Positions 7,054 through 47,291 of a stretch of 64,000 bases of DNA are shown here, piece after piece. Positions within the stretch are counted from its first letter, which is position 1, and the number at the start of each line of letters is the position of its first letter. The position numbers were made by a program, and so were the translations under genes. Under the pieces are notes generated by a model. That model was not told the DNA's origin and ran no database searches. It worked only from the letters and a program-made list of their open reading frames with translations. The stretch lies in the NCBI GenBank assembly GCA_003194525.1, contig NBIV01000229.1, forward strand, positions 62,001 through 126,000. The letters are read 5' to 3'. The stretch comes from Gracilariopsis chorda. Its lineage: Eukaryota > Rhodophyta > Florideophyceae > Gracilariales > Gracilariaceae.

Positions 7054-7058
7054 ATGCT

Positions 7059-19600: not shown

Positions 19601-19673
19601 TGTGGTCACCAATCCGTACGTTGACATGCTCACTTTGTAACGTCTCGGTACGATTTGACTTCTCAAAGCCCTT

Positions 19674-19969
19674 TTTTATTCGGGTACGCTAGGCAAGTGA
19701 GTGTCGACCATGTTGCGGTCTGACAGGGAAAATGAACAGGCGCAAAAGACCTCAGAAGTCCTACTGAGGCTGCCTCCTCCCTTCAGAGTTCTGCCTCTGG
19801 AGGTTGGATTCTTATTCTCTACTGCACACCTTCCTGATGGAAGCTAACTACGGCTTTTTGCGTGTGGGTTGCGCTGTCGCCCACGCAATTTGGATCGCTC
19901 TACTTCGGGTCCTGTTCTTCTTTCCGAAACGCCTGGTTCCTATTTGGCCATTTGTTCGAAGCGTTAGCA
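19674..19969 (-). repeat. 5' LTR of old family B element
   Basis: It pairs with 7059-7354 and is followed directly by the ATGCT target duplication. Confidence 0.85.
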
Positions 19970-19974
19970 ATGCT

Positions 19975-22368: not shown

Positions 22369-22746
22369 CTAGTGTCTATCTGACCAGCGACCTCATATGA
22401 GGTCAATATTAATTACTCTAGAACTTTATCAAAACCTTAAAACTTTTTCAAAAACTTTTTCACTTTGATCTTCTCATCATGTCTTCTACGCCGGCAGCGC
22501 TTAACCATGTCCACAACACATCACCAACAGTTATAGCTGTCACATCAAGCACTATCGTCAAAAACATTCGTACACGATGGACCCATCCACAGATCTTTTA
22601 GTTCAAAGACCACCTGATTAGCCATGTTTCAAGTTCAAAATTTGAAATGTGGGGCCATGCGGATCAGATTTCAATTTTTTTTATTATTTTGCGTGCCGGT
22701 GCTCTGACCTCATATGAGGTCAGCGCACTGGTCCGATAGACACTAG
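22369..22746. mobile_element. MITE with palindrome-containing terminal inverted repeats
   Basis: The ends are inverted repeats of about 37-42 bases: CTAGTGTCTATC on the left and GATAGACACTAG on the right. Each repeat contains the palindrome TGACCTCATATGAGGTCA (first base changed on the left), at about 22388-22405 and 22705-22722. The outermost CTAG means the target duplication is either TA or CTAG. The length of 378 bases and an AT-rich interior fit a non-autonomous DNA transposon. The interior keeps a short open frame (22479-22601, 40 codons), perhaps the start of a lost transposase gene. Confidence 0.85.
22479..22601 (+). pseudogene. 40-codon frame inside the MITE
   Basis: It opens with MSSTPAALNHVH and ends RTRWTHPQIF before a stop. 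The basic, tryptophan-bearing end recalls the start of a DNA-binding domain, which suggests an internally deleted transposon, but no family can be named from 40 residues. Confidence 0.3.
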
Positions 22747-22776
22747 AAATGCCTCAAGGATGATCCGGACTTGAGA

Positions 22777-22892
22777 CGCTTATGGTGCCATCGCTATAGT
22801 TTTATTGGTAACAAACTTTTGATATGCTAAAATGTGGCGAATTGTTGGCTGTAGGTCTGTGTAACATTTCTTTGCTTGGTAAACTGCTGTGG
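22777..22892. repeat. Dispersed repeat, copy 1
   Basis: It is similar to 24752-24870 in the same orientation. The best block is TGTTGGCTGTA, then GTCTGTGTAACATT, then GGCTGTGG or CTGCTGTGG. It may be a fragment of an unrecognised decayed element lying on both sides of the solo LTR at 23735. Confidence 0.6.
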
Positions 22893-23734
22893 AGTTTGGG
22901 CGCCATCACAAAATAAAAAAGCAAGGGGGTCAAGCTTAGCAATAAAGTAGGCTAAAAAGGGGGTCCTCGTAGCTGAAAGCCCCGTAGAGATAGAAATGAT
23001 AAACTGAGAGAACGAACAAACGAAAATGCAGGGACCATAAAAACTCAACCAGCTAAAAAAAAGAAAACAAGAAGTACAGCATAAGTCTTAAGCCCAACCC
23101 TTTTCAAAGTCCATTAAAAGGTGCATCACCAAAGACTTATGTCACTGGGTACTAAAAGTCAAAGTCTTGGCTTCCGGTCAAACATTTTGAAAGTTTAGTA
23201 ACTTCCGCAGCCTGAATAATTCTGCCCCAACGAAAAGCAGGCGCCTACAATCATTACATACCTACAACAGATAATTTACTAACATACTAACAGCGGCATA
23301 TGCTTTCATTCGGTACTGAATCTGCTTTTTTCAGGAAAGCTGGCGCGGCACGTGGAATTTTAAGATCTTCCCTTCTAGCGCTAGTATCTGGATTTAAGCA
23401 GATCTGTTGACCAACAGCGTTGTCCAAGAAAGGCTGCAAAGCTCTTGTATGACTCACAAATGACAGAAGCATCTTTGGTACGCACTATTGGTCAGGTGTC
23501 TACGCTTCGACCGCTTTAACCGTCTTAGTGGCAGCAAATGTCTACTTCATGTATTCAAATAGCAACAAATGCCTCACAAGAGGACTAAGAGGGTTGAATG
23601 TTTTACAAAAAGAATTAAAAAGGGTAAAGGATGAGGTTGGTATACATACTGTAGTTTTCTGTCCTTTCAAAGCCGGATTTTGGGCATCATTTTGTTCTTT
23701 TATAGCGTCTTAAAGCACGAGAAACAACGCAAAA
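22893..23734. other. No gene seen
   Basis: AT-rich sequence with only short frames of 60-73 codons and no signal or motif. Confidence 0.5.
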
Positions 23735-24561
23735 TGTAGTGCAACGCCCTCAGGGAGGGATTCTTGGTACTTGAACGCTTTCCCGATATTATCGGTTGTG
23801 TAGTGTGTATATGAATTACGCCCCACTATGGTGGATATGGACACGTGGGACACGGTTTTGGGTCAGTTGGCGGTTGGCCACAGTAGTGGATGTTGCTACG
23901 AAATGTGGAGTATTTTAGTTACTATTATTTATTATTTTCACACCCATTTCTGGGAAGCTAGTACTTAGTGCGACGGCGCACTGCCGTAGCACCAGTAAAC
24001 CTTCCCCAACAAGGGACCCCAACCTGGGGAATTGGCTCTAGTTGTTGCCGCTTGCGCGCGTACTCTACTCCTCCTTGGAGGGAAACGCCGTAAACCACGG
24101 GACATCTAACCCCCTTGCACATCTAAAGAAGCCCATCGTTGGGAGTATAATTGTTCCAATCATATTGGTGTTTCGCCCTGTATAGGGAGTCCTGTCCACT
24201 GGCATTGCCGTATCTGCTCGTCGCTCTCGCGACTCACATCGTCCTCTCTTCCTCCTCTTCGCCCTTCCTTTTCCCCCTTTTTAGGGTAGCACCTCCCGCT
24301 ATCCGCGGCCCTCGTGTGCGCATCCGCTTACACACCCCCACTTACGTGGAAACATACCTCTACTGAGGATCACACCCCGCTCACGCGGATACCGATTCTT
24401 CGCCTTCACCTCCCTGCGCGAGTCGCGACAGGTGTCCCTGGTCTTACAAACCGGCTTCGCCGTGACACCTCCGGGAGGGCTCTACCCAACTGGGTTCACC
24501 TCGTGAGAGGAAGATCCCGAACTTCTTTCGGTGTTTTTCCCCTTTGGGGCATTGCACCACA
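23735..24561 (+). mobile_element. Solo LTR of family A, plus orientation
   Basis: An 827-base LTR whose reverse complement matches both LTRs of the 27092-38646 element along its full length. It starts TGTAGTGCAA and ends TTGCACCACA. A perfect 5-bp target duplication, CAAAA, lies at 23730-23734 and 24562-24566, so it is a complete insertion reduced by LTR-LTR recombination. It is oriented opposite to the full-length element. Confidence 0.93.
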
Positions 24562-27091: not shown

Positions 27092-27918
27092 TGTGGTGCA
27101 ATGCCCCAAAGGGGAAAAACACCGAAAGAAGTTCGGGATCTTCCTCTCACGAGGTGAACCCAGTTGGGTAGAGCCCTCCCGGAGGTGTCACGGCGAAGCC
27201 GGTTTGTAAGACCAGGGACACCTGTCGCGACTCGCGCAGGGAGGTGAAGGCGAAGAATCGGTATCCGCGTGAGCGGGGTGTGATCCTCAGTAGAGGTATG
27301 TTTCCACGTAAGTGGGGGTGTGTGAGCGGATGCGCACACGAGGGCCGCGGATAGCGGGAGGTGCTACCCTAAAAAGGGGGAAAAGGAAGGGCGAAGAGGA
27401 GGAAGAGAGGACGATGTGAGTCGCGAGAGCGACGAGCAGATACGGCAATGCCGGTGGACAGGACTCCCTATACAGGGCGAAACACCAATATGATTGGAAC
27501 AATTATACTCCCAACGATGGGCTTCTTTAGATGTGCAAGGGGGTTAGATGTCCCGTGGTTTACGGCGTTTCCCTCCAAGGAGGAGTAGAGTACACGCGCA
27601 AGCGGCAACAACTAGAGCCAATTCCCCAGGTTGGGGTCCCTTGTTGGGGAAGGTTTACTGGTGCTACGGCAGTGCGCCGTCGCACTAAGTACTAGCTTCC
27701 CAGAAATGGGTGTGAAAATAATAAATAATAGTAACTAAAATACTCCACATTTCGTGGCAACATCCACTACTGTGGCCAACCGCCAAGTGACCCAAAACCG
27801 TGTCCCACGTTTCCATATCCACCATAGTGGGGCGTAATTCATATACACACTACACAACCGATAATATCGGGAAAGCGTTCAAGTACCCAGAATCCCTGCC
27901 TGAGGGCGTTGCACTTCA
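27092..27918 (-). repeat. 3' LTR of full-length family A element
   Basis: 827 bases, TG...CA ended. Its sequence is a chain of small stem-loops such as 27104-27114 (CCCC/GGGG), 27191-27201 (CGGC/GCCG) and 27420-27433 (GTCGC/GCGAC). Confidence 0.93.
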
Positions 27919-27932
27919 TATCCCCCCCCTAA
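27919..27932 (-). promoter_or_regulatory. Polypurine tract
   Basis: The minus strand reads a run of eight G with flanking A directly before the 3' LTR. This is the expected primer for plus-strand DNA synthesis. The same tract borders the 3' LTR of the old copy at 9782. Confidence 0.8.
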
Positions 27933-27974
27933 GACGGGAAAACGACCGCGGACGCGGAGGATTCCCAGACGAAA

Positions 27975-29762
27975 ATGGGTGATAAAAGCGCGTGCTCTGT
28001 CTCCGGTTCTCCGGTAAATCCCTCTGCATCAGAGTCATCGAGCGCACAAACAACAACAACAGCCACCCTCCAAAAGGGAAAAATGAACGACGACAACAAC
28101 ATCAACAACCACAGCCAACCTCCGAGACTTCTCGGGCGATACACCACCGGTTTCCGGTCAGTTCCCCTGCCTCAGGGCAATCGAAATCCGGTACAACCGG
28201 GGAATATGGCTGCTGCAGCCGACCATCCCTTCGCACTACCACCTTCGGTGGTGTCCTCCGGAACCACTCCGGTGTCCAACTGGCCAACCTACAACACCCT
28301 GGTGGGGCTCAACCCGATGAATCGGAATCACGCGTCGCGCCTGCGCCTTGCCCCGTGGTTTCACCCGGTCGCTGTCCTCAATGAGGGATTGGTCACCGCT
28401 TATGCGGATGGCTCAGACACCCTTCCGGGGGATCTGCCCAGAGCAGTCACCACATCGTGGGATTGGCGTCACCGGATTGCGATTCCGCGTCACCACCTCC
28501 AAAGAAATTCGGGCGAGACCGTCGCTGCGGAGCAGACCGCGTTGACGCACATGGCGTACCAACGGCAGAGCCGGGCTCCATTCGATGTACCGGTCCCACC
28601 GGAGTTTGGCTTCGACGTTAGCTACTTCCGCACTCGCGGGGAGATTGGGTACGGCGAGAACCTGTTCCGCCTCGAGACCCTCGCTTGGAGGAATTTTCCC
28701 GCAGCGCGGCAAGAAGCCCTTTGCTGGGAGCGACCGATTATTCGGGCGGAGTTCAGGTACCTTCCCCAGCAATACCGGTCCAACTTTCTCCAAAACTTCA
28801 TCCGCTACGAGCGGCGTTGGCGATCCCGATTCGTGTATTTTATCCCGTATCAGAACGTGGAGATAGAGCGGATTGCGCCGCCTCACCGACTAGGTCGGTA
28901 TGTAGCACTCCCCGAGTGGTGGCGCTTCCATGAAGCCTGCCGGGGGTGCTACATAGAACTCCCGCCGTTACTTACGTACCTCGGTTCGCTGCTCATGCAG
29001 GATCCCCGGTCGGGGTTGTGGTCCGTAGTAGTTACGGAGTGGGCAGCCCGCACTGCGGCTTATATCCTCAACGAGGCGTACGACCAGTATCGTCTCTGGT
29101 TCCTTCAACCGCGTGTGCGGGCAGCGATCCGAAACCTGGATCTTCGCATCCCCCTTGGGGGCCAGGCCAACAATGAAGAGGTCCTCCAATTACTTGGGTA
29201 CATCGACAGCATTAGCTGGAGTGAGGTCCCGCTGGAGCAAAGCGGTCGTCTGGATGGCGGTAGCGGTAACACCGGTGGTCTGGGACTCGGTAGAAACACC
29301 GCCCTTGCGGGGGATTTTATCTACTTCGACCCCTGGGAGTTCCGGGAAATTTCCTCCGAGGAGGCGCGCGAGCTTCGCGATACGCCCCGGCATGTGCCGG
29401 AAGACCACCCGGTGGGGTACGTCGATTCTGACGACTACTACCGTGCATACGGCGGGGATGACCGAATGGTCGATAACGAACCGGAAGAACCCGGGGAGAT
29501 GGACGTAGAGCAGACCGGCGCTAGCGCGGAAGCTTTCCCAGAGGGGGTGTCTCCGGCCGAGCCGGCTGCTGACCCTTCGGCGGCAAGTGCCAGACCTTCT
29601 ATCCCCAGCGGGGTGACGGCGAATGAAAGCGAAATCATCGCACGTTTCCTCCAGGGTGCCGGTCTTAGCGCTGCCGAGGTATCGGGGGATTTCACCACCA
29701 TGGCGGACGCGTTGGCCTACCGCCTTGCTGGGGGTTACGCCGCGGACGATGGGGGTGAGTGA
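27975..29762 (+). CDS. Antisense gene of family A element, unknown function (595 residues)
   Basis: I do not recognise this protein. The open frame starts 57 bases inside the LTR and runs against gag-pol, ending about 190 bases short of the chromodomain region. The first 90 residues are rich in Ser, Asn, Gln and Pro. The middle (about residues 90-420) looks folded, with conserved aromatic and arginine-rich blocks such as FGFDVSYFRTRGEIGYGE, ALCWERP, FIRYERRWRSRFVYF and EWAARTAAYIL. A glycine-rich stretch (about 420-440) and an acidic tail follow. There is no signal peptide, membrane segment or zinc knuckle. A second in-frame ATG at 28083 (MNDDNNINN) matches the start of the old copy (MNNSNNQPP), so it may be the true start. 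Transcription would have to come from the LTR in the reverse sense or from an internal promoter. Confidence 0.8.
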   Translation: MGDKSACSVSGSPVNPSASESSSAQTTTTATLQKGKMNDDNNINNHSQPPRLLGRYTTGFRSVPLPQGNRNPVQPGNMAAAADHPFALPPSVVSSGTTPVSNWPTYNTLVGLNPMNRNHASRLRLAPWFHPVAVLNEGLVTAYADGSDTLPGDLPRAVTTSWDWRHRIAIPRHHLQRNSGETVAAEQTALTHMAYQRQSRAPFDVPVPPEFGFDVSYFRTRGEIGYGENLFRLETLAWRNFPAARQEALCWERPIIRAEFRYLPQQYRSNFLQNFIRYERRWRSRFVYFIPYQNVEIERIAPPHRLGRYVALPEWWRFHEACRGCYIELPPLLTYLGSLLMQDPRSGLWSVVVTEWAARTAAYILNEAYDQYRLWFLQPRVRAAIRNLDLRIPLGGQANNEEVLQLLGYIDSISWSEVPLEQSGRLDGGSGNTGGLGLGRNTALAGDFIYFDPWEFREISSEEARELRDTPRHVPEDHPVGYVDSDDYYRAYGGDDRMVDNEPEEPGEMDVEQTGASAEAFPEGVSPAEPAADPSAASARPSIPSGVTANESEIIARFLQGAGLSAAEVSGDFTTMADALAYRLAGGYAADDGGE

Positions 29763-29953
29763 AACCTCTAGTCCAGTTTCCTGGTTCTTCTTTCCCTGGC
29801 TATGCCAGTTAGTGTAGTGTAGTATTGTGGGGAGCTAGCTGCTCCCTTGAATAAACTTTCCCGTTTAGAACGGTGCTTCTCGGTTGAGTTCCCCGTCTTC
29901 GACGGACCTTGTCTTGTTATCCTTTCCTGTCGCTCTCCGCTCGCGCGGCAACG

Positions 29954-32900
29954 TTACCCAACTTGGGCATTAACCAGCGTGGCTGGGGCTGCAGTTCCCG
30001 TTTGACGGTGGTATCGCAGGACCTGCGACCGTGGGAGGTGTTCAATTGGCTCCCACGTATCCCCACTGGGGGCGTACCCGTACCAGCGGACGCCGTATTG
30101 TAGAATACCATCCTGGTCCCAGGTGTGTCCGACAAGTCGGTCTACTACGAACTCTCGTTCGTAGACCTGCCGGCCGTGCCGGGTGGTGGTTGTAATTCCT
30201 TGCGGGGGCTGCCCGCTGTGCGGTATAATGTCCCTTAGCAGGGTGTTCGGCGATAACTCCGGCGTTGCCGTGCGCTGTGATAGCGGCCGCTGCTCATGCG
30301 GGAAGATATCCCTCAAGGGGGAGTGTGGTGCCACGGTTTTTACCGGCAAGTCATTCCCCATTGGGGTAGGTTCATTTCCGCTTTCGCGGTATTGCGGGCG
30401 AACCGCCAGTCGGCGGGGGACTTGGGCTCCGCCTTCGCGGTTGAGCTCACGAACCGCGAGTTTGCGGGAAGATGACCGCTCCTACGGGATCGGCATTTCC
30501 ACAATCCCCTGGGGGGTCCCGTGCGACACCGTGATTGGGTGGCAAACCGCCTCCCAGCCAGGCGCACGAGCGCTCTGCACCATACGTTCCGGCGATGCCG
30601 TGGTGTCCCGGGCTACTGACGGGTTGCCTGGGGCTAACTCCGGTACACCGGTATTTTGGTCAAAATTCCCCTTTGGGGGGTGCCGGGCAGGTGCCGATGA
30701 TACCCTTTTCAGGGGAATTGCCGCTAAGCGCGGTGCACCATCTCCATGAGGAGGAGCAGCGTCCGGTACGACCGGTTTCGAGCGTGCGATGGCGCGCGTT
30801 TTTCCCGAGTTCCTCGGTTCTTCGCCGCAGCGATGCGGGGGTTGGCGCAAATTACTCCCCGTAGCGGGGGCTTCGATTCCGTCAACGACGGGAGGCGTTT
30901 CCGGTGCTTGCAAGCCAGGGCTTAAAGCTTCAACTGCGGCTTGGCTGCTTTTTTCTCCAAGAGGGGTGTGGGTATTTCCCTGTGAGGCCGGCGTATCTGG
31001 GCGCCTCTTCTCCGCAAGGCGCGGGTCTGATCGACCTGATTGAACCGCTTCCGCGGGGACTTCCGCCAACGGCGGCTTCGAGGCATCGGGCAATTGCCTT
31101 TCCGCTGCTGCGGTATTGGAGTGAGGCTTCTCGTTTTCCCGTGACAAACGGTGTATTTGCCGCTTTTGCGGGGCCTGCGCGTCTGGTTCCTGTTGCACAG
31201 CACTGCCCGGGAACGGGGGATTAGTGTTGCGTGACATACTCCGTGCTCCACGGTCAGTGTTCCGTATGTTACGGTGTGTTTCCCGTTGCGACGGCGATAT
31301 CGTTCCTCGAAAACGACTGTTCTCCTCCCCCTCCTTAGACGGAGCGGCGGGATAAGGGATAACATTCCCCGCCTGGCGGGTATAGATGCGCGCCAGTGGT
31401 GCAAACGTGGTAGGGGCGGGCACTGAGGGGCCCGAATTACCCGGCTGAGCCGGTGAGTCCGACAGAGTCGGTAGGTCTGAGAGTCCCCGGCTGGGGTTTG
31501 GTAGTACCGTAGGTCTAGTACTCCCAGATGGTTCCGGTGTTGCAGAGTCCGTAGAAACGGGGTTGCCTGGATCCAGGGCTACCTCTGACGAGGGAGGAGG
31601 GGCAAGGACAACACGATCACGGGAAATCCGTTCGTGCGTGTCGCCCATCTCTACCACGACAGTGTCGGTGTTAACAGAGATGACCTTGAAGGTTCCATCC
31701 GCCACAGGCGAGAGTTTGTGACGCTTCTCCCGTTCCGGGTTGTAGTACTCCTTCCTGATGAAGACGTAGTTATTTGCCCGAATCGGGGGGTCTTTCCTCG
31801 CAAGCGAGCGTCAAAATTTCGCTTGTAAGCGGCTTGGGCCCGTGCCATAGACTTCCGCGCAGCAGGGACCAGCTTGGAAAGCCATTGCTTCCATTGCTGC
31901 CGGTAGGTACCCACAGATGGGAAATTGTCCAAGGTAGCTTGGGGTTCCAGCGCCACAGGCGGGGGTGTTCTAGATAGAACCAACTCGAATGGCGAAACTC
32001 CGGTAGTCCGGTGTACCTGCGTATTGTACGCGTAGGTTACCGCATCAGCGTAGAGATCCCAATTCGTTGGGTGGTCAGCGACGTAGGAACGTAACGCCGC
32101 GATTAACGTCCGGTTAAACCGTTCAACTTGCCCATTACACTGGGGGTGGTAGGTAGTCGTGACCAAGTTCTTGACATCCAGGATGCGAAAAACATTCTGG
32201 AAGAACTTGCTCACGAACTGCCTCCCGTTGTCGGAGAGCACCTCCACAGGGGGACCGTAGACAAAAATCCAGTGCGTCACCAGAGCCTGGGCCACCGTGA
32301 GAGCGGTTATCCTCCGAAGAGGAACAGTCCGTACCAGCTTAGAAAAGCGGTCGGTGATGACAAGTAGAAACTTGTTTCCACGTTTTGTGGTGAGTAGTGG
32401 TCGGAGAAGATCAATTGCGATAAACTCGAGTGGCGCCCTTGCGGGGAATAGTTTCATCTTCTTCGCATTTTTGCGGAGCTTGACGCGATTCTTCGCGCAT
32501 TCGCTACAAAACCGCACAGTTGCGTAGCAATCCACCGCGATTGCGGGCCAATAGAAATCCCTTCGCAGGGTTAGGTAGAGTTTCCTCCCACCTGGGTGAC
32601 CTCCAATGGGGGCGTAGTGTGATAGATGTAACACCCGCGATTGCAGGGAATGTGGTACCACAATCTGTGGGCGGGCTTCGACCTTTCTTACGAGGTAGCC
32701 TTTGTCGTTTACGCCGAAAGGGAGATCTTCACCACCGTTGATACGGGCACGAATTCTCGTACAGAATGGGTCGCCGAATTGTTCTCGGATCATTTCTTCC
32801 GGTGATACCGGTACAAAGTTTCCGGGTAACGGGTTCTCAGATTTATCTCGCGATGCGAGTAGTTCGTCAAAATCAGCATCGTCGTCCCAGTTTTCTGGCC

Positions 32901-35514
32901 TAGCCTCGACGGCATATTCCGGATCATCCGGGTCTATAGCCATGAAACATGGGACTTCATCATCCTCCGTTGGGTGTGCTTCCCCACTTGTGGGTAACCG
33001 CGACAAAGCGTCGGCCTGGGTGTTCTGTGCACCCTTTTTATAAATGACTTGAAAGTCATATTCCGCGATGCGGAGTCTCCAGCGCATGAGGCGTCCCGAC
33101 GGGTCGGAGATATTCATCAACCACCTCAATGAGGAATGATCCGTGTACACGGTGAAGTGAATTCCCATAAGGTAGGGGCGCAGAGTGGTCATCGCCCATA
33201 CGACGGCGAGGCACTCTTTCTCCGATACGGAGTAGTTCCGCTCATGAACATTGAGCGAACGTGACCAATAACCAATTGGATGTCGGTCCCCCTCGGGGGT
33301 GGTTTGAAAAAGAGCATACCCGACTTGGTAGTCGCTCGAGTCCGTATCTACGGAGTATGGCAACCCAAGTTTTGGGAGATGTAGGATTGGTGCTGATGTG
33401 ACAGCCTCCTTCAAGGAGTTAAAAGCTTCCGATTGCTCGGGCGTAAATGTTCCCAGTTTTGGGGGGTTCCCCTTTCGCAACAACGCGTTCAGGGGCGCCG
33501 CAGTATCCGAAAAGTTCGGGATAAACCGTCGATAGACATTTACCAGCCCCAGAAAGGAGCGCAGTTCCGTTTGAGTACGGGGTTCTTTCGCCTCAACGAG
33601 GGATTTGACTCGAGCTTTCTCGATCGCTAACCGTCCAGGACGGATAATGTGACCCAGATACTTCACAGTATCTGTGAAAAACTCGCATTTCCTCAACTTG
33701 AGGGTAATTCCCGCATCGAGGAGTACGGTCAGCACGTCTCGGACGTGAGTGAGATGGTCGTCCAACGAGTTGGAAAAGATGATAATATCATCAAGGTAGA
33801 CCAGACAACTCCGCCACTTAAAGCGGTTGAGTAGAATATCTACTGCACGCTGAAAGGTGGCGGGGCCGTTGGTTAACCCAAATGGCATCCGCTTGAAGCG
33901 GTACGTTCCTGCGTGGCAGGTGAGTGCGGTTTTGTCGCGATCCTCCTGTCTGACAGGTACTTGCCAATATCCCCAATTGGCATCAAGGGCTGTGAACACG
34001 GTGGCGTCTCCAAGGGAGTCAATGCACTCGTCCATACGAGGGATAAGGTACGTGTCCCTAACCGTCACGGCATTGAGCCGGCAGTAGTCGACACAGAACC
34101 TCCAGGTTCCGTCGGCCTTTAAAGCCAGTAGAACTGGGGATGCCCAGGGTGATTGAGCGGGCTCAATCACACCTGCGCTGAGCATCTTGTCCACTTGAGA
34201 CTGCTCCTCTTCCCGAGCTTTCGGACCTGCCCTGTAAGGGGGTTGTGCAACCGGCCGCGCACCGGGGATTAAATCGATCCGGTGTTCCGTTGCATTAATC
34301 TCGCCAAGCGAGCCATCCCACATTGTGGTGAATTCCCGTAACATAGTACGGAGTTTGTCGCGGTGCGACTCTGGCACGTGGCTGAAGTCCAGCGCTTCAA
34401 GTGATTTTTCCGGATCAATCCGGTCGTTGCTCGATAGAGCATTGTCCTGTGGAACAGGTGTGGTTCGCAATTCCGAGTTACTCGGTATGTTCGACGATGA
34501 AGTAGCGGTTTCCTCCCCCTCCTTAGACTTGACGTCTTCGGACGGCGGAGCGAACTCCTCAGAAGAGGTGGTAACTCCGAGTACATCGGCGGCTGTCATC
34601 TTTGTTGGCAGCATTCCCATAGGATGGGGGGTTACACTCCCAATTACTTGGTGTTTGACCAGATACTGGGGGTGTTTGCCAAGTTTGGCAACCAATATCC
34701 GGAAAGGGACATCCGGGGAAATGGAGACAATTCCATTAGCCAGCGCCAGCTGGGATTTCTCGTACAACGAGGCGAGGGGTTGTATAACCCGAAGACCGTG
34801 TTGACGGGAATTTACCTGCACCCAGACTTGGGACTCAGCCGGTATAGAAACCGAGGAAGCGACGCGGAGCTTGGTGGACTCGCGGGACGCGGGCGGTGGT
34901 TCCTGCGCAGCAGGGAGCGGAACGTGTTTCCGAGAGGACCGCTTTAGCGGGCGGCGAACAATTGGAACCGACGATCCGTCGTAAAGTTCTACACGCCTGA
35001 GGCGGGGCCTGATTGCGTCGACAAATCTGTCGCAGTAATCACATCCCAGTATGACTGGTGCTGCCAATGAACGGCAAACGATGAAGTCCAACTTCACCAC
35101 AGAGGTACCAAGTCTCACGACGAGGTCCACTGTGCCCAACGTTTGTAACGGATTGTTGTTCGCATCCGAAATGTCGGGGACCGCGTCAGAGCGGATACGC
35201 GACCGCACAAGCGGGGGTAACAATGATTCCACAACAAAGTTGGGGCCTGCACCTGTATCCAGGACGGTGAGAAACCTCACCATAAACTGGGCATCAAGGC
35301 CAAGGTCGGCATAGACCTTATAATTGCGTTTGGCCAAGACCAAGACTCTACCGGGAATCCGGGGATTTTTACTCCGTATCCACGGGCGACGCAACACACC
35401 GAGGTGCGCAGAGTCCGCGTCAGCGGTGTCTTTCCTCGAGAGGACTTTCACCGGGGAGCGAGGCGAGGACGCCTCGGGCGCCAACAGCCTCGTTCTTGAG
35501 GACGCCTCTCCCAA
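29954..35514 (-). other. pol region of family A element (fossil part)
   Basis: Parts in minus-strand order are protease (LDTGAG, near 35.2 kb), reverse transcriptase (near 33.6-34.2 kb, with YLDD), RNase H (near 33.0-33.4 kb, with the YTDHSSL block), integrase (near 31.9-32.7 kb, with the zinc-binding H..H..C..C block then DRFSKL, SDNGRQF and NGQVERFNRT), a long Pro/Ser/Arg-rich stretch and a chromodomain near 30.0-30.2 kb (WDQDGILQYGVRWYGY). Pol follows gag in a different frame, as in Ty3/gypsy elements that use programmed frameshifting. The region carries about two interruptions. Chromodomains steer integration to particular chromatin. Confidence 0.88.
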
Positions 35515-35531
35515 AGGGGAGACTCCCTCAG

Positions 35532-37532
35532 TTAGTTTTCTGCCTTCGGCGGTGGGATGGTTTCCTCGACAACGAGTGCTTCATCCCGTTGACGGGGGTT
35601 TCTATCCGCATAAGCGGGGTTTGCAACGGATGGTTGCGTGATCTCCCGAATCGGGGTGTATGAAGCTTGCCGCGCACGCGGGGTCTGTGGTAGGGCGTGG
35701 GAAATGTCCGTTTTAGCACGGAGGTAGGAAGCCGTCGGGACGGAACGTTTCTCCTCTGGAGTGAGGGCCTCATAATTTGCCACTACCTTGGCCATATCCT
35801 TCAGTGAACAAATACACTGAGGTGAGGTATGGCCATGGGTATAGCACAGGTGGCATATGAGAGCCAACACCGCGACACGCGGATTATTATTCCGAGTATC
35901 GGAGAAGCGAACCGCAGGGGGGCGGGTGTCAGTCCATCCAGGCCGTTGATAACGGGATTGACCGTTTGAAAACGGGAGTCGTTGGGGTTGAACCCGACTG
36001 TTACCACTGTACAAAACGGGGTCTTCCGTTCCCGTATCACAATTCATCTCCGTCGTTGACGGCAAATCACTGGTGGGTATCGACACACCATCCCCCTGCA
36101 CTAAACGCACGGTATCAAATCCCTGTCCAGGGTTCCCATCCGCGGTGAGCAGGAGAGAGGAAGCTTCGCTTTCCAGCAACAACGCCTTGGCGGATTTAGA
36201 CCGATTGTTCGGAGTTCTTGCACGAAGTGCATCCCCTTCCGCTCGAGCGTGTTGGACCAGCTCGAGGTAGGTGATCCTCCGCTTGTCCTCCCGATAACGG
36301 ATAACTAAACTCCGGATTGCCGGGTCAAGACCATCGATGAACATGGTACTGCGCTCCCCAGCGGGGTATACGTTACCACATCTGTGGAAAGCCTTGTTAA
36401 GGCGCACCGAGTAATCGGTCTCGGTCTCTCCAGCACGCTGGCGTGTATCTCGCAAAGCGAGGATAGCCTGCTGAATAGCGGTGTTGGTGGCGTAGGAGCG
36501 CAGAAGATACTGCACAGCCTCCGGCCAGCAAGTAACTCCTCCCTCGGAGGCGCGAGAAGATCCTCTGACAGAGGTGTATTGGTCCTCCGCCACTCCCCGT
36601 AAGAAATACGGTAAAGCCAAATAGGCTTGTCCCTCATTCATACCGAGGATATCGGCCTCCGCTACAAAGCGGGATAGGAAATCCAGTACTAGGACTGGGT
36701 CCTCTCCAGTAAAATACTGGTTGCGGAGCGAGAGCTGCATTCGCTTAATGCAGTCTCGCACCTTTCCCGTACCACGAGGCGTACGTCCAAGTGACGAATC
36801 TTCGAGCCGGTAGTACCGGTATGATAAAAGCTTCCGGTAATCCGGGTTTGTCGGTTTCAATTCCCGGAGACCGGGGTGTCTTCTCCCCTTCTGGTGGGTT
36901 CGGACCACACCTTCAGTGGCCGATGACCGCTTCGAGCGGGAGGAGTAGCCTCGCTTCTCGTCCTCCGAGTCGGAGTCCGAGGAGCTCGAGCTAACCGAAT
37001 GGTTTCGGGATGAGTCCGACGATGTCGAAGAATCGGAGTCCGAATATTTTCGGTGGTGTTTCCGTCGATGACGGCGTTTCTTCTTCCCAGCAAGCTGGTC
37101 GTTGTGCGATGCCTCGTTTACCGGATCACCCGGGTATGGTTTGTCCATGAGGACGAACTGCTCCAGCGTCTCCAGGCGGGCACCAATCCGATCAAATCGG
37201 GCTTCAACTCCTTCGATGAAGGCGGCGGGTTGTCCCAAACACTCCAACACGGAGTTGACGTCAGACCGTAAAATACGGAGTTCCTCCGCGACCTCCTTTA
37301 CGGGGGTTGCCGAGACCACCTCTTGGAGGGATTTTAGTTCCCCTACAAGGGTGTCATGGGCGGTCCACAGAGCGCGGACCTGGGATTCCAGGGACGTCCC
37401 CTGGGGGGTGTTACCGCCCGTTCCACGGGGGCTTGAAGCCGCGACAGCGGGAGCAGGCCGGGGTGCCTGGGGCACTGCGGCAACAGCCGGAGTCGATGCT
37501 GCATTCCCCTGCGGGGGTGATAACGAGGGCAA
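35532..37532 (-). CDS. gag of family A element (666 residues, open)
   Basis: The Pro/Ala-rich N terminus is followed by a coiled-coil-like part (about residues 50-130), a basic and then Ser/Asp-rich low-complexity stretch (about 150-215), a gypsy-type capsid domain (about 260-430, with the RDTRQRAGET and FIDGLDPAIR blocks) and one CCHC zinc knuckle, CHLCYTHGHTSPQC, before a Pro-rich end. The stop lies 18 bases before the first ATG of pol. The start chosen is the first ATG of the frame, and the leader from the 5' LTR would be about 280 bases. Confidence 0.85.
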   Translation of the reverse strand: MPSLSPPQGNAASTPAVAAVPQAPRPAPAVAASSPRGTGGNTPQGTSLESQVRALWTAHDTLVGELKSLQEVVSATPVKEVAEELRILRSDVNSVLECLGQPAAFIEGVEARFDRIGARLETLEQFVLMDKPYPGDPVNEASHNDQLAGKKKRRHRRKHHRKYSDSDSSTSSDSSRNHSVSSSSSDSDSEDEKRGYSSRSKRSSATEGVVRTHQKGRRHPGLRELKPTNPDYRKLLSYRYYRLEDSSLGRTPRGTGKVRDCIKRMQLSLRNQYFTGEDPVLVLDFLSRFVAEADILGMNEGQAYLALPYFLRGVAEDQYTSVRGSSRASEGGVTCWPEAVQYLLRSYATNTAIQQAILALRDTRQRAGETETDYSVRLNKAFHRCGNVYPAGERSTMFIDGLDPAIRSLVIRYREDKRRITYLELVQHARAEGDALRARTPNNRSKSAKALLLESEASSLLLTADGNPGQGFDTVRLVQGDGVSIPTSDLPSTTEMNCDTGTEDPVLYSGNSRVQPQRLPFSNGQSRYQRPGWTDTRPPAVRFSDTRNNNPRVAVLALICHLCYTHGHTSPQCICSLKDMAKVVANYEALTPEEKRSVPTASYLRAKTDISHALPQTPRARQASYTPIREITQPSVANPAYADRNPRQRDEALVVEETIPPPKAEN

Positions 37533-37798
37533 AAGGAGGTTCCGGGGTTCACGGTCGGGGGTATCATTCCGCGATGAAGCGGCACCAGCACGGCTGGAAC
37601 TTGTCCGTATGGGGATACGGGGTACGAACTGAACTTAGGAAGTGTCCGCGTTGTCGCGGGAGCGACTACGCGTAACCACTGGCTCCGCGTCGGAGGGATT
37701 TCTCGACATGAGAAAATACCGTTACGACGGGAAACGATCACGGAACTTCCGGTAAATAAAAACAAACCTCGTAAGAGGGAAAACAAAAACCGATTCTA

Positions 37799-37811
37799 GG
37801 TCGGGAGACCA
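37799..37811 (-). promoter_or_regulatory. Primer binding site of family A
   Basis: The minus strand reads TGGTCTCCCGACC three bases after the 5' LTR, complementary to a tRNA 3' end GGTCGGGAGACCA. The same 13 bases occupy the same position in the old copy (15850-15862). The tRNA species cannot be assigned from here. Confidence 0.8.
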
Positions 37812-37814
37812 CTT

Positions 37815-38646
37815 TGTGGTGCAATGCCCCAAAGGGGAAAAACACCGAAAGACGTTCGGGATCTTCCTCTCACGAGGTGAACCCAGTTGGGTAGGGCCCT
37901 CCCAGAGGTGTCACGGCGAAGCCGGTTTGAAAGACCAGGGACACCTGTCGCGACTCGCGCAGGGAGGTGAAGGCGAAGAATCGGTATCCGTGTGAGCGGG
38001 GTGTGATCCTCAGTAGAGGTATGTTTCCACGTAAGTGGGGAAGTGTGAGCGGGTGCACACAGGAGGGCCGCGGATAGTGGGATGTACTACCCTGAAAGGG
38101 GGAAAGGAGAAGAGTGAAAGGAAAGGAGGAAGAGTGGGCGAGGGTGAGTCGCGAGAGCGACGAACAAATACGGCAATGCCGGTGGGCAGGACTCCCTATA
38201 CAGGGCGAAACACCAATGTGATTGGAACAATTATATTCCCAAGGATGGGCCTCTTTAGATGTGCAAGGGGGTTAGATGTCCCGTGGTTTACGGCGTTTCC
38301 CTCCAAGGAGGAGTAGAGTACGCGCGCAAGCGGCAACAACTAGAGCCAATTCCCCAGGTTGGGGTCCCTTGTTGGGGAAGGTTTACTGGTGCTACGGCAG
38401 TGCGCCGTCGCACTAAGTACTAGCTTCCCAGAAATGGGTGTGAAAATAATAAATAATAGTAACTAAAATACTCCACATTTCGTGGGAACATCCACTACTG
38501 TGGCCAACCGCCAATTGACCCAAAACCGTGTCCCACGTGTCCATATCCACCATAGTGGGGCGTAATTCATATACACACTACACAACCAATAATATCGGGA
38601 AAGCGTTCAAGTACCCAGAATCCCTGCCTGAGGGCGTTGCACTTCA
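37815..38646 (-). repeat. 5' LTR of full-length family A element
   Basis: 832 bases. It matches 27092-27918 except for scattered substitutions and a short indel-rich patch in the middle, and is followed by the CCCGT target duplication. Confidence 0.93.
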
Positions 38647-39295
38647 CCCGTATTGGGTAATTCTTTCGCTACATCCCGTACATTTGCACCCTCCGTAGGG
38701 TCTTTTTACGCTTTTTGCACCACCCACCCGGTGGTTTTTACCCGTCTTCGGAAGGCACCCTTAACAGGGTATATTCTAAACCTCCGCATCGCGTGGCACA
38801 CCGGTTTCTGGTTTTACCGTCTTTCTGGCTCCGGTTCATCTTTTTTTATCAACCTTTGTGGTCAATCCGAAATACCTACGGAGTTATGGCCATAAATCAG
38901 GTTTACAGAGGGCTATGTCAATGGGTGTGCCTCTACAGGGAGCAAGGCCCCGGAAATCTTGAGTGTGATATCCAACCTTCGGGTTTTGCACTACACCACA
39001 TTTGTGGTTCACCCACTTGTGTCACTTGGTGGCACTGCCAGCCACGGCTCAACACGACACGTGTGAATCATGCCAACCATGAATAATATCCGTACGCTTG
39101 CCACGCGTCAATGTGTTCCAGATACCACAGAAATCACCCACGAAGGTTCTGAAAATACCAAGTAACATTCATATCGAATTTCACCCAATAATACCGAGGG
39201 TCCACTCATACCTGAGTTGAACTGATGCCACGACCGTATTGAATCATTCATAATCCACCTCGCCTAGAAGGTATACACGCACGCAGTGCCCTACA

Positions 39296-39851
39296 CTTCC
39301 GGTATAATCGAAATCCAAGGGTAGGAGATAATTTTGGATGATGTAGATCTTGCGATTGATGAGTAGGAGGAACAGAGGAGGACGGAACGGGAGGAAGGCA
39401 CAGAGCTCGATAGAAATTTGGCTACGGCGGGTGAAGAGATCAGAGCAAATGTGTTTGGCCGGGAGCTTCGATCCGCGGAGGGTGGTATCAAGGATGGGAA
39501 TGTGCCGACCGAGGTAAAGTGGGAAAGCGCAGAACTTGCTGCGGTACTGGATTACGACGCCTTGGAGCGAGATTTCATTAGGCAGCACTAAGCAACGCGT
39601 CACGATATGGAAAAGAAGCACCTTCGCGTTGACAACAAGCTACTTTCTACAAGCGCGAGCCAGCACAAGTCACTCAAACCCGCTGGGCGCGCCAGCATGA
39701 GCACAATGCGAAACTACTACGACGTGAAGAGAAGCACATTGAGTTAGAAGAGCAAAATGCGGTTTTTAAGAGAGATAAGCACCGTGGGGCGCTCAAAGAA
39801 CGCAACGAAATGATAGCTATGTTCGGCGCTTTAGTTAAGAAGCTACTGTAA
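39296..39851 (+). pseudogene. SANT-like protein of PIF/Harbinger type, 3' part
   Basis: This continues the frame broken at 25857. After the target duplication come GIIEI and an LDDV-like block with in-frame stops, then a charged coiled-coil-like end (RREEKHIELEEQNAVFKRDK) and a hydrophobic last segment, MIAMFGALVKKLL. Alternating charged residues before a short hydrophobic end are usual for these transposon-borne SANT proteins. It ends about 195 bases from the facing transposase. Confidence 0.6.
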
Positions 39852-40045
39852 ATTTCCGTTAAATTCTTGCTTGCGCGGCTCTCTCAAAGGGTCAAAGGTG
39901 CCCTCAACCATTTGAGAAAGTCCTCTGTTGCGGCATGCTCCTCGCTTTGCTCGTCGGTCGCAGTGCATACGTGGCAGATTTTGCTCTCGCCGCACCCTCG
40001 ACCGATTGGAGTGGCACGCAAGCGTAAAACCTGGTCCTGCGTTAC

Positions 40046-40590
40046 TTAGCCTGCGAGGTACTCTGCGATTCCTGGAGCTGCGCACTTGAAAAATGAGCTC
40101 ACTTGTACGCCACCATTCATACAGAGATGGAAATTCCAGAGCAGCACCGCAGCTTTGTATTGTAGATTATTAGGTGCCTCACGTACTTTAAAATGTCTTT
40201 TGTAATTCCCTGATGACCAGGTTTGCTTCATGTCTTTGCATTTCCATTCAACAGCCTCCCAGACGCTACTCATGGCAGTATTATAGGCCGCATCTTTTGC
40301 ACTAGCCCCTTCACCAGGAACACTTGTCCACAACCATGGTCTTATAATGTAATCTGCATCTCCGTATAGTCAAAACTGCTGCCCGTCAATTACGAGTGCC
40401 TTTTTTAGTTCTGCATCGATTCTACCGTCCCGATAGAGCTTCATGTCCTGACGCTTCCCGATACCAGGTCCATATAAGTAGAACAGCAAAGCATCAGTTG
40501 TCATGACTGACTGATACGCGAGACAGTGACAGTTTTTTTGCCCAGAACAGCAAGTTCGTTTTAGAGTAGCCGAACCCTCATTTTTCCAAA
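40046..40590 (-). pseudogene. PIF/Harbinger DDE_Tnp_4-type transposase, 3' part
   Basis: The minus-strand frame reads KRTCCSGQKNCHCLAYQSV, then YLYGPGIGKRQDMKLYRDG, then LYGDADYIIRPW, then FPGEG-like PGEGAS, AYNTAMSSV and EAVEW, ending KCAAPGIAEYLAG. The GD and VEW acidic residues fit the second and third members of the catalytic DDE triad. The N-terminal third, with the first D, is missing or unrecognisable, and one in-frame stop lies in the middle. It catalyses cut-and-paste transposition in intact relatives. Its neighbour is the convergent SANT-like gene. Confidence 0.8.
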
Positions 40591-41858
40591 TCTGGAACTT
40601 TTTGCAATCATTTTAGTCTACCCAGTTCTGCAAAAAGGGTCCCTTTTCCTCCAATGCTAATGCATATCAGGCAGTTAGACTGCCTATCAAAAACGTCCTA
40701 AAAATATAACGTAGGTGCGCTTTTGATGCCGTTATGATCTTTATAACCTCTAATAAACTTATGGAGAGCGTGAATGAACGCACGCCAAACATTTCATCCA
40801 TATCAACCCAGCAAATGGACGGTGCAAGAGGGTGTAGCATGATAAATGTTGCCGTAGACAGAGATATACTGTATCGAGATCGTTCTGTTTTGCCGCTGCT
40901 CTATTTGCTTAGATGGCATTTGGTCTGGAGCTTGGAGGCCTGTAATCGGAAGAGGGAAAAACATAGCGCTATAGACAAAGAATTGATGTTGAAAATGATA
41001 CTGAAAACTGCACTTGAATGTGTGTTTAGCATTTAACCGTCTTGAGAGCTTTGTGCATGACGACGAGGTAAATGTAGAAGGACTTTGTTTTCCGGATCGT
41101 CGACTAACGCTAGTTGAAGCAGGTACAGAGGATGACGGTTGCGTCGTTTTGCAAGCCCAATTGTTTAGTCGTTCTGGTGCATCGGAATTTGTGTCGGATC
41201 TTTGCAGAGACAACTCTTACTCATATACAAGACGTGTTTCTGTTCAGTGTCATTGGAGTTCTCTGCCGTATGACTAGGCCGGAGACGGAACACATGTGGC
41301 CTTCTCAAGTCACAAAATGTGGAACCATTTTTATTTGCGTAAGAACTCTATTCTCCCGATGGTTGACTTATTGGGTGTCTGTAATTCGCTTGAGCTACCC
41401 ATGTAAATCTACAGAATTAATTTTATATAACGCATTATTCTCTCTCAAGAACTGAAATAGAGACTTAATAGGTAAACTACACTCTAATAACCGTGTCATT
41501 TGTTTTGTTTTCGGCCATCTCATCGCTGTACACAACTGTACTATTGTTTGACAACTTATGTTCAAAGTCTGTACACTTGAGATGATAGCGATTTACAGAC
41601 TCAAAAGTCCACTGGAGGCAGCTCAGAGGGCTGCCTTCAGTGGACTATTGCTTAAAAGCAATTCATTTGCGGACGAAGACATGTCTTGCGAATTGCGGAG
41701 CTTCTGAAAATGATCTGCCACTCAGATGTAACATACAACGTTTACTAAAGGTTTGCGTCAACTCAAAAACCGGTCATGCCTCAGATGATTTTCCCAGAGG
41801 AATCCCGCCAGATGCATGGTACTCATGGCTCTATGAATCTACAAAGCCGTCTATGCTC
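40591..41858. other. No gene seen
   Basis: Short frames only. The long plus-strand frame starting at 41640 is the antisense shadow of the VWA gene that follows. Confidence 0.5.
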
Positions 41859-42947
41859 TTACTGCAGCTTTGTGCGGAAGACAACGCATTTGTGTTCACT
41901 CGTGGGCACGTTGTTGCGGTTCACCACCTGCCCATTCTGAGAAATCTCCTGGAAGCTAGTGAAATACAGCCTCACGCATTTGTCATTTGCCAATTCAAGC
42001 TGATTACCTTGGAAAGTCTGGTGCCCCACACCGGATCCGCGTTCCTCCGATATCCAATAGGGTTTGAAATGGGTTGGTGTAAATCTTTGGGAACCAAATT
42101 CCGTAATCAGACTCACTTGGTTTTCTTCGATGAACTCAGGGACGACATTGTTTGTGTTCAGCGTTCCGAGACTGTACGTGGTGGCCTTGGGCACAACTTG
42201 AGGAGTCATGCTCTTATCAGGCTCTCCAGCAATGGAAAAGATAGCATTATTGAAGTCATCAATTCCACTGAACTTGAACAAACACTTGTTGTATGCCTTT
42301 TCGCATTCAGTTTTGACTAGGGTAATGTTACAAATAGCATTCGCAACCACCTGAATCTTGGAGTCAAGGTCATCGAACCTCGTGTCAATATAGAACTCTG
42401 GTTCTCGAACCAGTTGGCGGAGTAAGTCAACACCCTTGCCCTTACTGATGCCGATGCCGACAGCTACAATACCGATACCGGCGTTCTTGATATCTTCCGC
42501 CGCGTTAATTGTTTGCGACAAGTCATCGGAATCTGGTACTCCGTCCGTCAAAAGCACCATAGTCCTGCTTCCTTGCTTACCTTCCAGAATACGTTGGCAT
42601 TCACTTAAACCAAGGGAAATGCGGGTGGTAGAGCGGAATCTTTCCTCTTCACTAACTGCATCCTCGAATGTTTTGAGATTGTTTGTGGGTAGCTGAATAA
42701 TCCGAACGTTACGAGAGAAGGCAACAGCGGAGTTGAAGGGGTCTGTGACGGAGGTCGACTCGATAATACGTGCAATCTTTTTCACGAAGTTTTGTTCGAG
42801 GTCATATTCGTTGTCGTTGATGGAACCGGACTGATCGAGAATGTAGCATACGTGCTTGATTTGGCAAGCAGGAGGAGATTGGGTTCGTCCGAACGCAACG
42901 GTTGAAATGACGGCAAGAACCGTGACAAGGAAGAACCTGCTGGTCAT
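41859..42947 (-). CDS. Secreted von Willebrand factor A domain protein, third paralogue
   Basis: A 362-residue single-exon protein with a signal peptide (about residues 1-20) and a VWA domain with complete MIDAS: D38, S40, S42 in DQSGS, a threonine in the STTRIS loop and D in LLTDG. The tail is shared with the 840 and 4317 genes (VPEFIEENQ, GSQRFTPTHFKPYW, CVVFRTK) and has conserved cysteines. I chose the ATG at 42947 rather than 42959. A TATA-like box lies only about 30 bases above 42959, which would leave no leader, and from 42947 the MIDAS residues carry the same numbers as in the paralogues. An extracellular metal-dependent adhesion role is inferred. Confidence 0.9.
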   Translation of the reverse strand: MTSRFFLVTVLAVISTVAFGRTQSPPACQIKHVCYILDQSGSINDNEYDLEQNFVKKIARIIESTSVTDPFNSAVAFSRNVRIIQLPTNNLKTFEDAVSEEERFRSTTRISLGLSECQRILEGKQGSRTMVLLTDGVPDSDDLSQTINAAEDIKNAGIGIVAVGIGISKGKGVDLLRQLVREPEFYIDTRFDDLDSKIQVVANAICNITLVKTECEKAYNKCLFKFSGIDDFNNAIFSIAGEPDKSMTPQVVPKATTYSLGTLNTNNVVPEFIEENQVSLITEFGSQRFTPTHFKPYWISEERGSGVGHQTFQGNQLELANDKCVRLYFTSFQEISQNGQVVNRNNVPTSEHKCVVFRTKLQ

Positions 42948-42986
42948 GATGAGACTCACTATGTGAACAAGTATGAATTTACCTTG

Positions 42987-42994
42987 TATATATA
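42987..42994 (-). promoter_or_regulatory. TATA-like box of the third VWA gene
   Basis: TATATATA lies 40-47 bases upstream of the ATG at 42947. It is one of the few strong TATA matches in the upstream 200 bases. Confidence 0.5.
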
Positions 42995-45900: not shown

Positions 45901-47291
45901 AACTGGCACGAACTTGAGACACTGTGGTGTGTGTAGCTTTCTATTATAGACAACGAAAATGCATCTATAGAACATTAAATACCGTCGAAATCTGATCTGC
46001 TGTCTATGCAAGGTCCAAGTGTTTTCTGACCACAAACACCAGCACTTAAGGAGTATTATAATGACCAACTTGGCTTACTTGACGACTATGGTGTTGCTGT
46101 TCCTTTAGATTGTGCCCGTCATCCTGCAAATGCCAGCACTTTATATGTCCTTTGAGTTAAAGCGGCCTGAATCTGCACTGTTGGTCCATCTCAAGATTCT
46201 AGTTATCGAACCGCGGCTATCTTTCTGAACCGACACTGGGTGTTGACGCGTGGAATCCTCTTCAAGCGCTGCATCAACACCTTGTCTTTGGTCTGGAAGG
46301 ACATGAAGGCTCTGAAAGCTATCATAAAGATCGCCCAATAAGCTGCGCACAAGCTGTTTGTCATTCATATCTTGAGGGTAGAGCAAGCCTATCATGAAGA
46401 GGGAGTCCGAAGGCTAACATTTTTTTCATGGAGACTTCACTCTTGAGACACTTGAAAGGTAGGAAAGGCTTGGCCGCTAGCTCTTCCTTGTAACTGCGTA
46501 TGGTCCCATCGTTGAAAGAATTCCCAAACAAAACAACATGGCAGCTAAACAAAAAACTCGAAGAAAATGAGTTTCCGTGCAAACGACATGTACGGCTCCA
46601 TTCTGAGAGTGGTCTGGTAATAAAGGTCTAACCCATTGCGTCAGTAGTAAAGCATATTTATGAGGCCAAGTGATGTATCTAATGCCTAATTTCTTCTTCC
46701 AAGTATAATGTTTCCGGGAACGCACGAAACTTCTGTGTACTCTTGTATATGAACCTCATTCATATCTGAACTTGCCCTTCTATCATTATATTCTGCAAAG
46801 TTGAGAGGCTTCAAGAGAGGGAATGGCGTAATAATTGTTTTCACAATGAGCTAGCTTCCACCGGTGTGCACAGGATACCAGACTAAGTTCGAATTTCATG
46901 CTGAAGAATATGCATTCATTTCCTATCATTTGACGAAGCCAAACTTTCTTTCATCAAACCGACAGCCGACCGACTGCTGACAGCAAAAAAAAGCTTCCAC
47001 TAGCAAGTTTGGGGGCCTATATTACCATCATTCTGAATAAAGATTCTCCTACGGTCTCAACAATAGCCTGAAGTTATGATAGTGTTTGAATGCCGCTTGA
47101 GTCTCGTGCTAAGCCTTCGTGTAGTATAAGAGTGACTTTGAGAGTCCCAACCTCTTCCTTCCACAGCCTCTGCTTCTTCGAAAGCACGTCTCTATTCTGG
47201 AGAAGCTTTTGCATCCAGGAGCCTTTTCTTGGATTTCAGAGCAAAATCCTGGCTACAATTTTTGCCGAGCTCTCGTTTTCACTGAAAGCTC
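42995..47291. other. Long gene-poor stretch
   Basis: Only short frames occur. The least unlikely is minus 44411-44626 (71 codons, ending YPWHYQISYCKNDEEW), which has protein-like composition but no signal, domain or partner. A small GACA microsatellite lies near 44044-44061. Confidence 0.45.
44044..44061. repeat. Tetranucleotide microsatellite
   Basis: About four copies of CAGA/GACA in a row. Confidence 0.8.

Follow-up and report, generated by a model that had tools for sequence, protein, structure and literature searches.

Small hairpins of one design are arrayed along a clade of Ty3/Gypsy retrotransposons in the red alga Gracilariopsis chorda

Introduction

In MS2 and other single-stranded RNA viruses, dispersed RNA packaging signals consist of many varied short stem-loops that share a common recognition feature and whose spacing is reported to matter (PMC6281560). 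Genome-scale ordered RNA structure, described for positive-sense RNA viruses, likewise extends over whole genomes, coding and non-coding, in short duplexes (PMC3950689). Template switching is reported both to create and to maintain hairpins (PMC8794818), and the zinc finger of Gag is critical for RNA packaging in yeast Ty3 (PMC4974528). Here, we report an array of small hairpins along family A, a Ty3/Gypsy long terminal repeat (LTR) retrotransposon at positions 27092–38646 of a 64,000-nucleotide stretch of the red alga Gracilariopsis chorda (contig NBIV01000229.1), hereafter the window, to which positions refer unless another sequence is named. The hairpins of family A follow one design, with four to five Watson-Crick pairs, a loop of 3–4 bases, C-C at the 5′ base of the stem and G-G at its 3′ base, and the array is a trait of one Ty3/Gypsy clade in this genome (91.3 Mb in 1081 contigs), from which all sequence evidence was drawn.

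The array resembles dispersed packaging signals in comprising many stem-loops with a common feature, the C-C...G-G base (262 occurrences versus 32.1 expected). It differs in that the recognition feature is loop and bulge in MS2 and the stem base in family A, and also in its more uniform units, in their number, which runs to hundreds, and in showing no preference for G-U pairs; capsid binding, which promotes assembly in such viruses (PMC6281560), is putative in the present case. With genome-scale ordered RNA structure it shares short duplexes over a whole genome, coding and non-coding, but family A is an integrated LTR retrotransposon and not a positive-sense RNA virus. Unit size, base motif and spacing, all three of which family A has, are not mentioned in the excerpts of PMC3950689. 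The preference for G-U pairs and the sense-strand bias expected of such structure are both lacking in family A. Perfect stems and short loops are shared with template-switch hairpins (PMC8794818, as excerpted), from which family A is set apart by a size cap, a one-way base motif, preferred spacing and the lack of an arm-copying footprint. The matched double changes of such hairpins are frequent between families (72 of 237), and among family A copies they make up one of six distinct double changes. Like yeast Ty1 and Ty3 (PMC4974528, PMC9503155), family A is an LTR retrotransposon with a Gag; nucleotides 429–4979 of Ty3 are dispensable in cis (PMC4974528), whereas the family A array spans the whole element. 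By analogy, the array may work like packaging signals or like ordered RNA structure, and it is at most a putative member of either class. Among the matches listed from openly licensed PubMed Central papers, none concerned such hairpins in red-algal elements or in retrotransposons.

Results

A first-pass annotation, made from the letters of the window alone, had described family A as a chain of short inverted repeats with 14 named stems in three clusters. All 14 are perfect inverted repeats of 5–7 base pairs (bp) and lie where they had been placed:

27092–38646, minus strand (sense strand): family A Ty3/Gypsy element, 11,555 bases
33662–33792, no strand assigned: pol stem cluster, five stems of 6–7 bp within 131 bases
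36376–36461, no strand assigned: gag stem cluster, five stems of 5 bp within 86 bases
28165–28252, no strand assigned: stem cluster of the antisense open reading frame (ORF), four stems of 5–6 bp

Stems of at least 5 bp with loops of 1–8 bases numbered 246 in family A against 81.9 in dinucleotide shuffles (3.0 times). The same count gave 55 against 40.4 (1.4 times) in family B, a second element of the window with LTRs, and 51 against 65.5 (0.8 times) in 1–8984, where the VWA genes lie. Values for the remaining stretches were 73 against 71.8 (1.0 times) in 38700–48200, 79 against 68.4 in 54300–64000 and 66 against 47.9 in 17000–23700. With loops of 1–5 bases, family A had 218 against 51.5 (4.2 times), family B 33 against 26.2 (1.3 times) and 1–8984 28 against 41.5 (0.7 times). 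An older relative at 9000–16700 held 72 stems against 35.8 (2.0 times), and all stretches other than this relative and family A fell between 0.7 and 1.4 times their shuffles. The several-fold excess proposed for family A was thus borne out, and more strongly than had been claimed, with family B near chance, and the stretch with the VWA genes showed no excess (0.7–0.8 times), as had been judged by eye. For family B the proposed absence held at 5 bp or more and less well at 6 bp or more (loops of 1–8; 17 against 9.7). The LTR had been said to carry a stem about every 20 bases, which is recovered when 4-bp stems are counted (36 in 828 bases) but not with at least 5 bp and loops of 1–5 (12 in 828). 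A guessed chance rate of one stem per 150–200 bases was too high, the measured rate for this latter class being about one per 224 (51.5 in 11,555).

The excess withstood other controls. By a similar count family A held 215 stems, with a maximum of 68 over 200 whole-element shuffles, and shuffling within 60-base blocks (n = 100) gave 55.5 with a maximum of 72. Mirror repeats with matching geometry were hardly enriched (63 versus 49 ± 7). Short direct repeats were in excess (127 versus 66), and a mild direct-repeat excess was likewise seen in family B and in host DNA. Synonymous-codon shuffles (30 each; stems of at least 5 bp, loops of 1–5), which had been proposed for gag and the antisense ORF, left a clear surplus in both (48 versus 10.2 and 26 versus 9.2), and codon-preserving shuffles did the same for pol (78 versus 16.4), with the family B ORF at 25 versus 22.5. 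An Rfam search of the family A element returned 0 matches.

The first-pass description of short stems with loops of 1–5 bases also agrees with the counts, the excess lying at these loops and at stems of 4–6 bp. Among stems of at least 5 bp in family A, loops of 3 bases were found 75 times versus 9.5, loops of 0 bases 11 times versus 13, and loops of 6–8 bases, summed, 28 times versus 31. The exact combination of a 5-bp stem and 3-base loop occurred 68 times versus 9, and that of a 4-bp stem and 4-base loop 100 times versus 27. Stems above 6 bp are rare, and total hairpin size is mostly 11–14 bases. In the 82 stems with five pairs and a triloop, C was the outermost 5′ base in 70 and occupied the next position in 62. 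Defined as C-C...G-G at the stem base with two more pairs and a span of 11–15 bases, the motif was counted 262 times in family A versus 32.1, while the inverse G-G...C-C was at expectation (30 versus 28.1) and family B had a single C-C...G-G motif versus 7.2. The motif is present in gag, pol, the middle region, the antisense ORF and both LTRs, as detailed below together with the older relative:

37809–38646, minus strand: 5′ LTR of family A, about 95% identical to the other LTR; motif 21 versus 1.8 expected
35532–37532, minus strand: gag-like ORF, 666 amino acids, one CCHC zinc-knuckle-like motif; motif 50 versus 3.8
31651–35514, minus strand: pol ORF, 1287 amino acids, with reverse transcriptase (RT), RNase H, and integrase zinc-binding and core domains; motif 71 versus 7.4
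29763–31650, minus strand: middle region, from pol to the antisense ORF; motif 52 versus 6.6
27975–29762, plus strand: antisense ORF, 595 amino acids; motif 38 versus 6.1
27092–27919, minus strand: 3′ LTR of family A; motif 23 versus 2.9 expected
8985–16700, minus strand: older broken relative of the same clade; motif 86 versus 15 in 9000–16700, a lower density than in family A

Two LTRs around gag and pol, with domains in the order RT, RNase H, integrase (PF00078 at 466–624, PF17917 at 718–819, PF17921 at 953–1010 and PF00665 at 1028–1124 of pol), identify family A as a Ty3/Gypsy LTR retrotransposon. Neither the gag-like ORF nor the antisense ORF had a Pfam match.

Codon-preserving shuffles of the motif itself gave 47 versus 4.0 in gag, 68 versus 11.0 in pol, 36 versus 6.8 in the antisense ORF and 1 versus 4.7 in family B. 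This excess, and the presence of the motif in all parts of the element, uphold the earlier proposal of a trait that acts on the nucleic acid itself, whether a part codes or not and in whichever direction it does so. That chance, composition, codon usage or an assembly artefact produced the stems is most improbable. Family A is indeed higher in G+C than its flanks, but roughly 3- to 12-fold excesses remain after whole-element, 60-base-block and codon-preserving shuffles, mirror repeats of equal geometry are nearly at expectation, and the trait recurs with covariation in diverged families on many contigs.

Strand polarity of the motif was considered and dropped: a C-C...G-G inverted repeat is identical on both strands, so its polarity is one of inside versus outside. 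Only the flanks are strand-dependent, the base 3′ of the motif on the sense strand being A in 106 of 211 cases versus 329 of 905 after G-G generally. When non-overlapping hairpins were called (at least 4 bp, loop of 3–5, outermost pair C-G), 285 were obtained, covering 31% of family A at 8–17 per full 500-base bin. Their neighbouring centres lay 18–24 bases apart in 89 of 284 distances, versus 52 ± 6 under random non-overlapping placement, and less than 18 apart in 20 of 284 versus 49; none of 1000 random placements was as extreme. The same peak was seen by inspection in nine other clade sequences pooled. A fixed long-range lattice was rejected in favour of a preferred neighbour distance only, since the distances peak at about 20, weakly at about 42 and 62, and then fade.

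Within the genome, the trait is characteristic of a clade. All 16 RT pieces whose main pol matches reached at least 66% to family A carried the motif (7–18 versus 1–2 expected), while four pieces at 33–37% had 0, 0, 0 and 3. In a sample of twenty 10-kilobase pieces, each from a single place on one of the 20 lowest-numbered contigs (L011–L030; L028, all N, was excluded), the motif mostly occurred 0–2 times per 500 bases outside dense elements and often 5–9 times or more inside them. At least three motifs were found in 86 of 380 readable 500-base bins, from which the clade may make up perhaps about one fifth of the genome, as judged from one place per lowest-numbered contig. Within this sample, positions 8000–9800 of L025 are motif-dense (10 versus 1.5) and have no match to the gag, pol, antisense ORF or LTR queries of family A, the matches listed being those above 60 amino acids for protein and above 150 bases for DNA. 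Viral contigs were also scanned for relatives, and none was confirmed.

Families of the clade differ in the base of the hairpin. C-C is preferred outermost in family A and L051, C-C and C-G are about equal in L013, L026b and L053, and in L052 C-C sits one pair further toward the loop (T-C 70 versus 11, C-C 56 versus 12, A-C 41 versus 8). Zinc knuckles were searched for with a text pattern for CCHC. Six of the seven clade sequences examined have a knuckle, and none was found in the broken older copy. The residue before Gly-His in the knuckle is His in five clade sequences and Glu in L052, so that positions 480–6103 of L052 represent a clade family combining a shifted hairpin clamp with a Glu-type Gag knuckle.

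Conservation between families was examined by comparing family A with 13 of 20 RT pieces and a piece of L013, five representatives of which served for counts of pair changes; the comparison excluded L031 and L050 (broken match), L038 (stop) and the distant L045, L046, L047 and L049. Hairpin centres common to family A and L041 (74% identical) numbered 14 of 35, and those common to family A and L034 (65% identical) 6 of 35, versus 1.5 in offset controls in both cases. Worked examples show several stems rewritten between families through matched wobble changes. Wobble-wobble pairs that had changed between families and were Watson-Crick in both made up 72 of 237 in stems versus 406 of 4943 elsewhere (odds ratio 4.9). 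By eye, none of the stems compared had a reverse-complemented loop.

Copies of family A were compared in alignments of at least 92% identity and at least 700 bases. Stem sites diverged by 3.3% and other sites by 4.6%, a difference that is clear in pol, the middle region (63 of 1439 versus 290 of 3772) and the 5′ LTR, and among the third codon positions of pol, variation was seen at 12 of 242 in stems versus 99 of 892 others. With hairpins called in the window copy only, 173 distinct single changes fell in the arms, 86 in 5′ and 87 in 3′ arms, and one of six distinct double-changed pairs went from Watson-Crick to Watson-Crick; for a replicating lineage this is a weak test, because many changes may post-date insertion.

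These results bear on one of two mechanisms offered in the first-pass annotation, in which an RT turns near-palindromes into perfect ones by template switching. The growing complementary DNA (cDNA) end would fold back, copy its own upstream arm and then return, and no function would be required. Strict Watson-Crick pairing with no G-U preference fits such an origin, as do the restriction of the trait to elements with one kind of RT and the short loops, which recall template-switch mutations in ribosomal RNA genes with enriched 4-base loops (PMC8794818, as excerpted). Fold-back copying does not readily account for stems capped at about 6 bp and hairpins at about 11–14 bases, for a one-way base motif with a register shift in one family, for the preferred spacing or for the lower overall divergence of stem sites. 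Nor do the even split of arm changes, the low share of compensated double changes beside 173 single ones (weak as this test is) and the lack of inverted loops among the compared stems speak for it. The mechanism is weakened by these points, and we regard it as unlikely, though not negligible.

The other mechanism, selection for RNA structure, was assessed from the kind of pairing that is kept. One-sided changes between families gave G-U in 130 cases and A-C in 154 (controls 6749 and 7065), and G-U and A-C alleles were level among family A copies (112 and 116). Motifs with one mismatch in ten sequences had A-C 157 times versus 66 and G-U 97 times versus 61, most other mismatch types being likewise somewhat above expectation. 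On the sense strand of 27092–38646, C-A was the highest of all mismatch types in such motifs (98 versus 35), a surplus that could stem from wobble tolerance on the other strand or from strand-biased mutation. Folding-energy excess in family A (128 windows of 120 bases) was 10.9% for the sense and 9.9% for the antisense strand, compared with 2.8% and 5.4% in family B and −1.2% in one host stretch. In published modelling, G-U was selected in five of five non-coding RNA sets and four of five RNA virus sets, and G-T weakly in single-stranded DNA viruses (PMC6993869, as excerpted). If sense RNA alone mattered, G-U should be favoured over A-C; as it is not, a reading in sense RNA only is not cleanly supported. 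The lack of a G-U preference and the likeness of both strands point to DNA, or to pairing needed in both strands. Selection itself is favoured by the covariation, the lower stem divergence overall, the size limit, the base motif with its register shift and the spacing, so that of the proposed selection for RNA structure the first part stands better than the second.

An ordered structure of the sense transcript, as in persistent RNA viruses, might nevertheless hide the element from small-RNA guides or RNA sensors and require no specific reader. At the preferred spacing most 21-base targets would overlap a hairpin, covariation and the codon-level excess are in keeping with it, the restricted duplex length is remarked upon in PMC3950689, and the sense-strand folding excess lies above the 3% threshold given for such viruses in the excerpts of that paper, whose windows and shuffles differ from ours. 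Against this stand an equally structured antisense strand, the G-U neutrality that sets family A apart from the modelled RNA sets (PMC6993869), and a C-C...G-G base for which such a shield has no need; we hold it to be rather unlikely. A shield acting on two strands, in which hairpins with loops too small for kissing stop sense and antisense transcripts from annealing into double-stranded RNA, would suit the equal structure of both strands and the strict Watson-Crick pairs, the only ones that work on both, and an antisense ORF with homologues in red algae is present. This ORF is, however, the sole sign of antisense transcription, the motif is not densest there (38 in 1788 bases, against 50 in 2001 for gag and 52 in 1888 for the middle region) and the base motif is left unexplained, which makes this shield decidedly improbable.

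Discussion

The reading we tentatively favour, and to which we give a little less than an even chance, is that of a selected, quasi-periodic array of mini-hairpins in single-stranded replication intermediates that is read by a protein. The array would run along the genome-length molecule, in units mostly of 11–14 bases with neighbours often about 20 apart, and its hairpins would form in genomic RNA, in minus-strand cDNA or in both. A protein sensing hairpin size and the G/C base could bind along the strand; the zinc-knuckle Gag of the element itself would be the simplest candidate, and the role of the array may be packaging, compaction or cDNA handling. Exact pairing would be maintained by the need for the structure to function in DNA, or in both complementary strands, a G-U on one being an A-C on the other. 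A bolder form of this proposal, possible but rather doubtful, is a genome-long second code that is read on single-stranded cDNA, or on RNA and cDNA, by a co-evolving element protein; the evolution of gag, pol, the antisense gene and the LTRs alike would have taken place under that code. To our knowledge, such a nucleoprotein scaffold is of a kind not known for retroelements.

Several observations weigh against a selected, protein-read array. Most hairpin positions differ between families. The lower divergence of stem sites does not hold for gag (p 0.55) or the antisense ORF (p 0.70), in the 3′ LTR it falls short of significance (p 0.30), and p-values in these comparisons overstate certainty because the copies share history and are not independent. 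The distant gypsy RT of L049, at 37% to family A, has 16 stems versus 7.0 and three motifs versus 0.3. The link between knuckle and hairpin register is carried by one family, L052, and one case is no test. Neutrality toward G-U could also have a mutational origin, and the choice of Gag as reader is a guess. Finally, the cis-dispensable interior of Ty3 implies that a whole-genome array is no general need of such elements (PMC4974528, as excerpted). L049 may, as a separate matter, perhaps possess a related trait with another motif.

If the favoured reading is right, a regular structural code is written over coding and non-coding sequence and is strong enough to mark the borders of the element in raw sequence. 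The several diverged families of this genome, which differ in their base motifs, would then form a natural system in which to ask how a nucleocapsid reads an entire genome, how structure is balanced against protein coding, and whether RNA or single-stranded cDNA is the target of selection. Should the mutational origin be the true one, polymerase fold-back would have shaped an entire element, an extreme case of its kind.

Other features of the window

Among 120 matches listed for pol, the sole species-named relative belonged to Agarophyton chilense (70%, with 72% of the query covered). The antisense ORF had three relatives, the named ones being from Gracilaria domingensis (48%) and Gracilariopsis chorda (46%). 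One further LTR copy of family A is found outside the element:

23734–24561, plus strand (opposite orientation): family A LTR copy, 98.9% identical to 27092–27919

In family B, which is without the hairpin motif, the 300 compared bases of the LTRs (48261–48560 and 53623–53922) are identical, which suggests a recent insertion. Among named relatives, a VWA protein encoded in the window is closest to those from Gracilaria domingensis (52% identity) and Gracilariopsis chorda (49%). Taken with the relatives of pol and of the antisense ORF, this points to a Gracilaria-like red alga as the probable host; a COX1 search of the genome gave two weak matches, which fell below the cut-off. A large inverted repeat is formed by 1–1901 and 4317–6217, with arms of 1901 bases that are 100% complementary and 2415 bases between them; each arm holds a VWA-type ORF or its mirror, and the repeat may extend past the window edge.

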